A program made the translations under genes and the position numbers. From the NCBI RefSeq assembly GCF_040214835.1, contig NZ_CP157874.1, positions 2,174,001 to 2,238,000 on the forward strand: a stretch of 64,000 nt of DNA. Direction: 5' to 3'. The DNA is from Pseudomonas asiatica. Lineage in GTDB: Bacteria; Pseudomonadota; Gammaproteobacteria; Pseudomonadales; Pseudomonadaceae. Of this stretch, positions 39,169-41,794 are shown piece after piece (the stretch's first letter is position 1; each line of letters starts with the position of its first letter). The notes below the pieces were generated by a model. It saw only the letters and a program-made list of their open reading frames with translations. It did no database searches and was not told where the DNA came from.

Positions 39169-39195
39169 GCCGGCAGCTGTGTTGTCGCTGCCGGC
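39169..39195. terminator. Terminator-like hairpin between operon end and toxin/immunity island
   Basis: GCCGGCAGC (39169-39177) and GCTGCCGGC (39187-39195) with a 9-base loop. It is 13 bases past the deacetylase-like stop and lies between two convergent units. No T run follows on the plus strand. Confidence 0.5.
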
Positions 39196-39260: not shown

Positions 39261-39527
39261 TTATAGCTCATATCTTTTTTGGGTCAAGAATTCAGGCTCT
39301 CGCCAGTTTGGACCTTTGATATAGCCATTTCCACCACGCTGTATCAAACCTTCGTCACTCATTTTCTTAATCAGGTTAATGAGTTGTAGGCAGTCGCCAA
39401 TGTTCACCCATCCATTTCGATTGTATAGATTGTCGAGTCGTGGATGAGAAATGCCATTTTGCCTGACAAGCCACAGAATTATATCGGTGGGGCTTTCGTT
39501 GGTGATTATTTCGCTAATAGTGTTCAT
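39261..39527 (-). CDS. Putative immunity protein for the pyocin-domain toxin (88 aa)
   Basis: A small, low-GC gene whose ATG overlaps the toxin stop (ATGA), so it is translationally coupled to it. The product is soluble, with a helical start (TISEIITNESPTDIILWLVRQNG) and a winged-helix-like pattern (CLQLINLIKKMSDEGLIQRGGNGYI, about 46-70). I recognise no family; the immunity role is inferred from position and size and from the classic toxin-then-immunity order. It could instead be a small DNA-binding protein. AGAGAAC precedes the ATG. Confidence 0.72.
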   Translation of the reverse strand: MNTISEIITNESPTDIILWLVRQNGISHPRLDNLYNRNGWVNIGDCLQLINLIKKMSDEGLIQRGGNGYIKGPNWREPEFLTQKRYEL

Positions 39528-41272
39528 TTGTTCTCTCGTGCGATCTGCTGGTCATCTGCTTCAATTGCTTCTGGTGTGTAAAGCAGTTCGAGCTCCGAGG
39601 TGAGTTGGTAGTCTTCCAGTGTTGCAGCGTGTGTATTGTTCCATGCTTCACCATCATCGTTCGGCCTGATTTTATCTGGTATTTCAAGGGTGCGAAAGCG
39701 CTCCAGCTCCCTTATCTCATGTGTGTAAAAGCGCTTGTCGGTGTCCGTTTCTTGCAACTTGCCCTGTAGGATTTTTTCCAGCCTGTTGATCATGATGTCA
39801 TTTGCATCGGACGGGCCGAAGCGGCTTGTGTGTAATTTGACTAATTCGATGCCTGTCGCTGTGATTTTGACCTCGCGCCAATCCAGTCGCTCGATAGGTC
39901 CACCTGCTTTGTCTGGATTATAAGCTCGCCCGCTATAAGTGCCTATGGTTGTTGCGTCGGGATAGGGAGAATTGAAAACTATGTACAGTGGTGGCAGACC
40001 AGATTCTGGCGGGAAGCAGTAAATACAGTCTTTATAATTCGGTGGTTCATAGGCAGGGAGCGGTGTCGCTTCTATCCATGCGGGTCTGAGATTGACCCCC
40101 TCATAGGGGTCCGACAGTATCGGGTCACTGGGGGTTGTAGTTGACGACCCGTTCTCGGTATGAATGGGGAAGCTGAGCCTGATTGGAAAATCACTCGATG
40201 GAATCGATGTGTAGCTATTGCCTTCTTTATCCATTACTAAGGGGCGTACAGGCACCTTTTTTTCAGCACTTGTGGAGTTTGCGCGGTTCGTAAGAGTATA
40301 CGTGTCCAGATTGGCATTTATTCGTAGCGGTGATTCAATTGTCCCGTGCTTAAGCGCAATGTCATGAATATTCGTAGGCAAATCAGGAATGAGTAGTTCA
40401 GCAGGCATGCTCAGGGCTGAGTCATGGTACAAATCAGCGTTTCCTAATTCTGATGAATAAAAAAATAAACCTATGCCCAGCCTGAAGATTGGGGTTGCAG
40501 TAATGCCCAGTGTCTTAACTTTCTCTATTCCTCTAAGGATATGGCTCTGAAGGCTGCCAAATCTGATTGGGTTAGTTGATATTGTGGTTAATGTTGAGCT
40601 TAGCACTATTCCGGAGTTGGGTTTTAAGGTGATGGAATTGCCTTGACTGTCTTTGTTGTGGTTGTTTCTTAATATTATTATGGTTTTCTGCTGGAGGTTT
40701 TCGTATTCCTTTTTTATTTTTTCAAGGCAGCGATTTAGTACTATTTCAATTTGCGCGGCAGTAATGTTGCTCATTAAAAAGTACAAATCTTCCTCGATCA
40801 TATAGAAATCTTGGTCGTGCCAGCGGTTAAAGTGAACGACGTTTTCGAAATGCAGTGCTGCTTCGTCAATGCCTATTGTATATATGTGTTCTGCTAAGTA
40901 TAGGTTGATATTGTGGATGGCTTGTTTGTGGGTTTTGTTATAAAGGAGCAGGAGGAATTTCTTTTGGGCGTAAAGTTGGCTTGCCTGGTCTGGGTAGGAT
41001 TGTCTTATGTCTGAATAATGTTTATTCAAATAGTTCTCAAATCCAGGAGTGCTCACTGGGCAGGTAGCCTCGATTTCCTGTATCACATTTTTCGCAATGG
41101 TCGTTGCGTTGTCGCTGAGCGCATCATATGAAAGCGATGCTATGTTCGGCGGTGTTATAGGTAGTGTGAACGGGCTGTCCCAAGAAAGGATGTCCTCAAA
41201 GTCATATGTAAAAGGCGCGGCTGAGTATATTTCTTGCAGTTCCTGGCTTGTTAGTGTTCTGCGTGAGGTCAC
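39524..41272 (-). CDS. S-type-pyocin-domain toxin (582 aa)
   Basis: GTG start with AAGGG about 10 bases upstream. Residues 1-250 are helical with no signal and no known receptor or translocation domain (start LTSQELQEIYSAAPFTYDFED). Residues about 255-415 fit the S-type pyocin domain (PIFRLGIGLFFYSSELG, then KKVPVRPLVMDKEGN and the closing AWIEATPLPAYEPP). The C-terminal 165 residues look like the toxic module: PLYIVFNSPYPDATTIG, AGGPIERLDW and a conserved RFYTHEIRELERFR (514-527), whose His, Glu and Arg could be catalytic. The HNH motif of pyocin DNases is absent. Base composition is much AT-richer than the neighbours, indicating acquisition. Confidence 0.78.
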   Translation of the reverse strand: MTSRRTLTSQELQEIYSAAPFTYDFEDILSWDSPFTLPITPPNIASLSYDALSDNATTIAKNVIQEIEATCPVSTPGFENYLNKHYSDIRQSYPDQASQLYAQKKFLLLLYNKTHKQAIHNINLYLAEHIYTIGIDEAALHFENVVHFNRWHDQDFYMIEEDLYFLMSNITAAQIEIVLNRCLEKIKKEYENLQQKTIIILRNNHNKDSQGNSITLKPNSGIVLSSTLTTISTNPIRFGSLQSHILRGIEKVKTLGITATPIFRLGIGLFFYSSELGNADLYHDSALSMPAELLIPDLPTNIHDIALKHGTIESPLRINANLDTYTLTNRANSTSAEKKVPVRPLVMDKEGNSYTSIPSSDFPIRLSFPIHTENGSSTTTPSDPILSDPYEGVNLRPAWIEATPLPAYEPPNYKDCIYCFPPESGLPPLYIVFNSPYPDATTIGTYSGRAYNPDKAGGPIERLDWREVKITATGIELVKLHTSRFGPSDANDIMINRLEKILQGKLQETDTDKRFYTHEIRELERFRTLEIPDKIRPNDDGEAWNNTHAATLEDYQLTSELELLYTPEAIEADDQQIARENK

Positions 41273-41794
41273 GTCTATTTCCCTTGAAGAAGCCTTGAGG
41301 TACTAAACCTTGAGGCTTTCGCAAGAAGGGCGGCAGGTGGAATAGATGCACTGCTATTGAGTAGCGAGCGCGACACCAACAGAAATCGTAGATGCCGATG
41401 GCTGGTGGGTGTAAGAAGATGGGTTAAGCTGTTGGATCAAGGGAGTTAGACATCTAGTTTTTGTTATAGGCACTCGTTGGCTGAAGTATCCCTGAGGTTT
41501 ATGGAATAGGTGACGCAGACTGCGGAGGGAGTTGGCCTGCACCTGTGGCAGCGGGCATGTCCGTGAAGAAGCCAGCGTGGCTCAAGCGTGGAGTGTGCAG
41601 CTATCGGTGGCAGGCGTAGGCTGGGGGAACCAGAATCTTCGCATCAGGCGCCATCCCTTGGGCAATCCCTGCACAGACTGCAAGCACCAGAGAATCCCCC
41701 TGTTCCCCTGTTCCCCCCCCCCACTGCACGCCTAGGCCTAGTTGATGTGCAGAGCGGCGCTCGATCTCACAGGTGCTGAAAAGGTTGCGGCGAA
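41273..41794. other. Intergenic region upstream of toxin and downstream of the MocR gene
   Basis: The 522-base gap is AT-rich near the toxin and contains the toxin's promoter, not resolved. Seen: a hairpin at 41290-41318, a degenerate single REP at 41540-41571 (CACCTGTGGCAGCGGGCATG) and a run of ten C at 41713-41722. Open frames here lack ribosome sites and coding character; I see no convincing gene. Confidence 0.6.
41290..41318 (-). promoter_or_regulatory. Leader hairpin just upstream of toxin ribosome site
   Basis: AAGCCT TG AGGT ACTAA ACCT TG AGGCTT forms a stem interrupted by one 2x2 mismatch, starting 17 bases upstream of the GTG. It overlaps the bases just before the Shine-Dalgarno sequence and could limit translation of the toxin. 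Confidence 0.5.

Follow-up and report, generated by a model that had tools for sequence, protein, structure and literature searches.

What would a short AT-rich gene pair in a GC-rich Pseudomonas genome do, and by which chemistry would it kill? A toxin/immunity pair is in itself ordinary for Pseudomonas, but published accounts disagree on the killing chemistry of the class with which this one falls. The killing domain matters because it is widespread in Pseudomonas and Enterobacterales, matched no Pfam model of its own, gave no significant fold match, and has been credited with two conflicting activities. Our reading, to which we give a probability of roughly 0.87, is that the locus encodes an S-type (colicin-like) bacteriocin and its cognate immunity protein, with import, tail class and translation arrest as proposed below.

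A killer gene and an immunity-type gene in an AT-rich island

The window, that is, the whole 64-kb stretch of DNA that was analyzed, belongs to a genome assembled as a single contig of 5.85 Mb, and Pseudomonas provided the nearest named relatives both in the database search and in a scan of one genome per species. As originally predicted, two ORFs lie head to tail on the minus strand (Table 1), both frames being intact, with the stop of the toxin gene and the start of the small gene sharing the sequence ATGA (39524-39527). The low GC content that had been claimed against a high-GC background is equally clear, with values of 0.452 for the toxin gene and 0.416 for the small gene vs. a mean of 0.642 (sd 0.036) for 2-kb windows across the 64 kb. 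The minimum of these 2-kb windows (0.448) falls inside the island, and the only ones below 0.52 start at 38.6-40.2 kb. The four neighbors scanned are peptidase-family, histone-deacetylase-family, MocR-type and amino-acid permease genes. A run of 10 C (41713-41722) lies in the intergenic DNA that separates the island from the MocR-type gene, at the return to high GC. The perfect inverted repeat that separates the immunity gene from the convergent histone-deacetylase-family gene possibly marks a transcription end, although a terminator function is a guess, and no T-run follows the repeat in the sequence. Upstream of the toxin gene, we saw neither a LexA-like box (the best candidate, 286 bases upstream, has two mismatches to CTGTN8ACAG) nor a P-box-like site, both sought as consensus patterns, which leaves pyocin-type regulation unsupported.

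Table 1. Features of the toxin/immunity island, with positions numbered along the window
Feature	Position	Strand	Basis
S-type bacteriocin (killer) gene	39524..41272	-	ORF, 582 aa, GTG start; Pyocin_S PF06958, E 9.6e-22
Immunity-type gene	39261..39527	-	ORF, 88 aa, ATG start
Shine-Dalgarno-like AAGGGA	41280..41285	-	Read directly; 7 bases separate AAGGGA from GTG
Receptor-binding-like helical domain, residues 19-212	40637..41218	-	Predicted fold, like pyocin S2 bound to FpvAI
Pyocin_S domain, residues 303-432	39977..40366	-	Pfam; inner-membrane translocation role from PMC9040868 (excerpt)
DPY motif D415-X4-F420-P421-X8-Y430	39983..40030	-	Translation; definition from PMC5536347 (excerpt)
Cytotoxic tail, residues 433-582	39527..39976	-	Relatives and AlphaFold2 model; assigned indirectly to the carocin D / pyocin G / SX2 type
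Conserved helix RFYTHEIRELERFR, residues 514-527	39692..39733	-	Alignments A2 and A4
Conserved WNNTHAATLEDY, residues 544-555	39608..39643	-	Alignments A2 and A4
Perfect 9-bp inverted repeat	39169..39195	.	Read in sequence; between immunity gene and convergent histone-deacetylase-family gene

The killer protein carries putative receptor-binding and translocation domains

A Pfam search with both proteins bore out the pyocin-type domain of the original prediction, since Pyocin_S matched residues 303-432 of the toxin (78.4 bits, cut-off 22.5, E 9.6e-22), and nothing else was found in either protein at E <= 10. This is the only Pyocin_S match in the whole genome. The DPY motif, defined as D-X4-FP-X8-Y in the available part of PMC5536347, is matched exactly (D415, F420-P421, Y430). 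Pyocin_S is described as an inner-membrane translocation domain (PMC9040868, excerpt), and the predicted fold of residues 19-212 resembles pyocin S2 (PDB 5odw; Foldseek E 0.056, identity 13%), in a type of comparison where helical bundles reach high scores by chance. The claim that the protein has no recognizable receptor or translocation part was not borne out, as the N-terminal domain is, on its predicted fold, a candidate receptor-binding domain of the pyocin S2 type.

The N-terminal 200 residues are present in 7 of 298 Pseudomonas genomes, all seven of which also contain a window-type tail. Shorter proteins of 325-333 aa, with no N-terminal domain, occur as well (L007 in genome G045, P0010, P0022 and P0030). 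In G045, the N-terminal part (a 252-aa frame) and the C-terminal part are separate matches, which may represent decay or a split protein.

The tail is a conserved helical module found behind many N termini

The AlphaFold2 model of residues 425-582 (pLDDT 91.3, pTM 0.85) predicts six helices together with strands of only two residues. The two most conserved stretches of the tail, RFYTHEIRELERFR and WNNTHAATLEDY, each map to a helix in this model, with the conserved His segments on model helices 86-104 and 118-130. In an alignment of 20 tails (A2), R514, T517, H518, E519, R521, E522, E524 and R525 are invariant in the first stretch, as are W544, N545, H548, A550, T551, L552, E553 and D554 in the second, and all of these remain invariant in a second alignment (A4) that takes in Enterobacterales and P. 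aeruginosa. The window tail retains every residue that is invariant in A2. A fold search with the tail model against the PDB and viral models gave no significant match, and a Pfam scan of the 20 tails one by one found no nuclease family and no model for the tail itself.

We identified 476 tail relatives at E <= 1e-3, and PF06958 is present in each of the best 120. Within Pseudomonas, the tail occurs in 51 of the 298 genomes vs. seven for the N terminus, which points to a single killing module combined with many N termini. The scan of one genome per species returned 166 tail relatives; among the best 80 of these, 20 are from Enterobacterales (with Kosakonia, Erwinia, Pantoea, Serratia, Morganella, Klebsiella, Rahnella, Rouxiella and Enterobacter among them). 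Plasmids carry the tail too (34 of 72,556 records, half of the 34 from Klebsiella), including Klebsiella plasmids of 5.8 kb. The names given to several of the enterobacterial proteins (colicin-D, klebicin D activity protein, "colicin-like bacteriocin tRNase domain-containing") apparently follow the PF03515 domain at the N terminus and are misleading as to the killing domain. One locus (L032, G181:C90:134000-150000) presents a same-strand array of whole and orphan tail copies, with five matches on the contig, which may be likened to the orphan cassettes of polymorphic toxins.

Several indirect bridges link the tail to carocin D, pyocin G and pyocin SX2

While the C-terminal toxin had been left unassigned, there is a strong but indirect sequence case that it belongs to the carocin D / pyocin G / pyocin SX2 class, made through published descriptions, primer ends and hybrid proteins. 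The available text of PMC7322526 gives the killing domain and immunity protein of pyocin G as homologous to those of carocin D, and that of PMC5909648 notes the carocin D class in P. baetica, set apart from pyocin S3. The first bridge is a hybrid from Pseudomonas sp. NFR02, described as ColM plus Pyocin_S plus a carocin D module without a Pfam domain (PMC5821083, excerpt). The same architecture is displayed by P0079, in which ColM and Pyocin_S precede a window-type tail, a match that would tie the tail to carocin D. A protein from NFR02 itself, P0094, is not the published ColM hybrid, since it carries the tail but gives no match to ColM. Pectobacterium, in turn, encodes two proteins (P0177 and P0190, 827 and 874 aa) in which a tail 59-60% identical to that of the window lies behind Cloacin (PF03515) and Pyocin_S. 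A further bridge is provided by the primers for ImSX2 printed in PMC10422930 (excerpt), a comparison that covers only the two ends of that protein. They translate to MLDLE and EKKYGIV. Family immunity proteins in L123 and, after one extra Met, L116 begin with the former, and the one in L130 ends with the latter.

A small signature ORF accompanies every tail inspected

In the database search, the window immunity-type protein matched seven proteins at E <= 1e-3, including its own cluster. A small ORF with the signature [KR]G..W..P.F was present near 31 of 31 tails, from 30 loci including the window. It overlaps the end of the toxin in all cases except L021, where the tail is cut and the ORF lies 168 bases on, and in 23 of the 31 a start is available 4 bases short of the toxin gene's end. 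Together with the 476 tail relatives, this places the observation beyond chance and upholds the toxin/immunity-type pair of the original prediction. Of these partner proteins, 21 align as one family, and the window protein gives a profile match to its P. aeruginosa counterpart in L130 (hhalign E 5e-28). Identity to the window protein ranges from 26 to 81% in this family, vs. 54-87% for the tails; an immunity protein varying faster than its toxin is as expected of a specific inhibitor. The adjacent 88-aa gene thus qualifies by sequence as the probable cognate immunity gene, whose protective action we infer.

Three Pseudomonas loci (L034, L035 and L036) have cut tails and an immunity domain in one 210-residue frame, ending ...GPNW..PEFMIDKRY. 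These fusions read as orphan toxin-remnant/immunity proteins, and the one in L036 adjoins a full-length relative.

A module swap and empty sites point to horizontal gain

Relatives with swapped C termini, which had been anticipated, were found in one case. A 711-aa ORF on a P. aeruginosa plasmid (L130, NZ_CP131792.1) matches pyocin S2 (5odw) over residues 1-210 with 444 bits, contains Pyocin_S, and ends in a tail 54% identical to that of the window over 156 aligned positions; next comes an 85-aa member of the window immunity family. By sequence, this is a natural swap that places the N terminus of pyocin S2 on a window-type tail. The chimera is absent from the gene table of this megaplasmid, and is followed by additional immunity genes and by two short features of the pyocin S6 toxin type.

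We also surveyed the surroundings of the bordering histone-deacetylase-family gene at 30 loci. The toxin adjoins this gene at five of them (L131, which is the window, L163, L164, L168 and L169), and the MocR-type regulator adjoins it, without toxin, at six others (L132, L161, L162, L166, L167 and L172). At 18 loci, both toxin and regulator are absent within 1.5 kb, although fewer than 700 bases are visible at one of these (L165). The spacing between the histone-deacetylase-family and MocR-type genes is 2.6 kb in the window vs. about 40-350 bases at empty sites. The seven genomes with the N terminus of the window toxin include five that have it at this site, and G245, which has it elsewhere. 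With occupied and empty sites, and with G245 elsewhere, the pair behaves as would a mobile cassette that uses one site repeatedly. These findings support the original proposal that the toxin/immunity pair was gained horizontally. At the remaining locus (L170), the histone-deacetylase-family gene has broken repeats of the MocR-type regulator next to it. These pieces match the 3' part of the regulator, at the cassette site, and are possibly the scar of a cassette exchange.

Arrest of protein synthesis is favored over DNA cleavage

The original prediction had left the toxic activity open, which was fair, and there is a sharper reason for it, namely that the published activities of the carocin D / pyocin G / SX2 class conflict (PMC10422930, excerpt). 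On one side, the same bacteriocin would have a tail that is a non-HNH DNase. In the excerpts available, carocin D is called an in vitro DNase and nuclease activity is inferred for pyocin G (PMC7322526), carocin S3 is reported to digest DNA (PMC7461348), and carocin D is listed as a His-Me finger DNase (PMC9990079). On the other side, PMC10422930, in its available part, reports no DNase activity for pyocin SX2 with Mg, Zn or Ni, and a reduction of cell-free reporter synthesis by 50% with SX2 vs. 97% with colicin D. In our model, the tail is predicted to be mainly helical, and the position of both His segments on helices gives no suggestion of a His-Me finger, being unlike a beta-beta-alpha metal finger. 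Moreover, the net charge is negative in 19 of 20 Pseudomonas tails (mean pI 5.5; the exception, L011, is +6), and 14 further tails from 13 loci comprise 13 that are net negative and one that is neutral. By comparison, all 18 of the E3-type rRNase domains taken from this genus have a net positive charge, with a mean pI of 9.5, the comparison being imperfect since the E3 matches span ~80 residues and the tails ~145. From the helical His segments and the acidic tails, we judge it more likely that the window protein would arrest protein synthesis, by attacking tRNA, rRNA or some other component needed for translation, than that it would cleave DNA, and consider a DNase tail rather unlikely.

A bolder idea, which we put forward only tentatively, is that these tails represent a new enzyme fold, blocking protein synthesis by means outside the known bacteriocin nuclease chemistries, with an active site formed by H518, E519, R521, E522 and R525 together with the W544-N545-x-x-H548 helix. 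With 19 of 20 tails net negative, a particular protein or RNP would be a better-fitting target than free DNA. If so, the DNase reports for carocin D and carocin S3 would reflect contamination or a side activity. The tail and immunity gene of the window offer a compact copy, with a list of invariant residues, in which the question of DNA or translation is directly testable.

An HNH bacteriocin was rejected, in agreement with the original prediction, as neither an HNH nor a Colicin-DNase (PF12639) match was found by Pfam at E <= 10, and none in the 20 tails. The four best Colicin-DNase matches in 59 Pseudomonas genomes (L189-L192) lie in frames of 2709-3978 aa, far longer than S-type pyocins.

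A colicin-like bacteriocin model and its rivals

In the model that we favor, toxin and immunity protein would be made together and released as a complex, after which the helical N-terminal domain would bind an outer-membrane TonB-dependent receptor on related pseudomonads, much as FpvAI is bound by pyocin S2. Pyocin_S would then carry the tail through the inner membrane, a step that is FtsH-dependent in pyocins G and SX2, and this 150-residue module, a member of the carocin D / pyocin G / pyocin SX2 class, would kill in the cytoplasm, probably by halting translation, with the 88-aa protein binding the tail to protect the producer. What the computation shows is the order of the genes, their domains and predicted folds, the conservation, a single module swap, the constant company of immunity-type genes and the empty sites, the receptor, import route, target and protection being the parts that we infer. 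Counted against it are the indirect nature of the class assignment, the DNase reports for carocin D and S3, the 50% effect of SX2, weaker than that of colicin D, the positive tail of L011, the low N-terminal identity to pyocin S2 and the fact that no pyocin control box was seen upstream.

Pyocin_S domains are also known in type VI secretion effectors (PMC9040868, excerpt), and the toxin could be such an effector, borrowing Pyocin_S for inner-membrane passage, instead of a diffusible bacteriocin. Residues 408-448 have a weak NCBIfam match to VPA1263 (19 bits, cut-off 900), and the genome has nine PAAR matches. However, the closest of these is about 152 kb off, the four scanned neighbors are not T6SS genes, PAAR, VgrG and Hcp domains were not found in the toxin by Pfam or NCBIfam, the modeled N terminus resembles the pyocin S2 receptor domain, and the window-type tail occurs on a pyocin S2 backbone in L130, all of which makes this reading improbable. 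Least probable of all is a decayed or silent remnant kept by chance, which would accord with broken relatives (a copy with two internal stops in G157, and the G045 copy in two matches), with the cut and orphan tails and with the failure to see a known pyocin control box upstream, but not with the intact frames and complete set of invariant tail residues of the window, or with the near-identical full-length relatives among the matches listed (P0001, 582 aa, tail 99%; P0002, 578 aa, 96%).

Comparison with known systems

The likeness of the window toxin to VPA1263-type T6SS effectors (NF047924) is limited to the Pyocin_S/DPY region; the toxin tail of these effectors is different, and Pfam and NCBIfam detected no T6SS domain in the window protein. 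Pectobacterium relatives differ by their Cloacin-type N-terminal domain. Pyocin S2 is similar in the predicted fold of its N-terminal domain, and its N terminus is found with a window-type tail in P. aeruginosa. In pyocin S2 proper, the C-terminal domain is an HNH DNase. The HNH domain of pyocin SX1 is 63% identical to that of S2 (PMC10422930, excerpt).

As in the window, the killer gene of carocin S3 from Pectobacterium overlaps its 90-aa immunity gene by ATGA, although carocin S3 is longer, with 880 aa vs. 582 (PMC7461348, excerpt). The P. aeruginosa pair pyocin G / ImG shares the Pyocin_S domain, which pyocin G requires for inner-membrane passage (PMC7322526 and PMC9040868, excerpts); its N terminus is of the S1 type, with Hur as receptor, whereas that of the window toxin is pyocin S2-like by predicted fold. 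Pyocin SX2 from P. aeruginosa, as described in the available part of PMC10422930 (which prints EHF11209.1 and WP_083842350 for pyocin SX2/ImSX2), has a measured activity, while the window toxin is known from its sequence. It has 696 aa with CPA-binding and CrtA-binding domains, vs. 582 aa with one compact receptor-like domain in the window, and its cytotoxic domain is reported to be unlike other bacteriocin killing domains of known structure. As in the window, an inner-membrane translocation domain is followed by a pyocin G / carocin D-like cytotoxic domain, and ImSX2, with 87 aa vs. 88 for the window immunity-type protein, has primer-encoded ends that match the window family.
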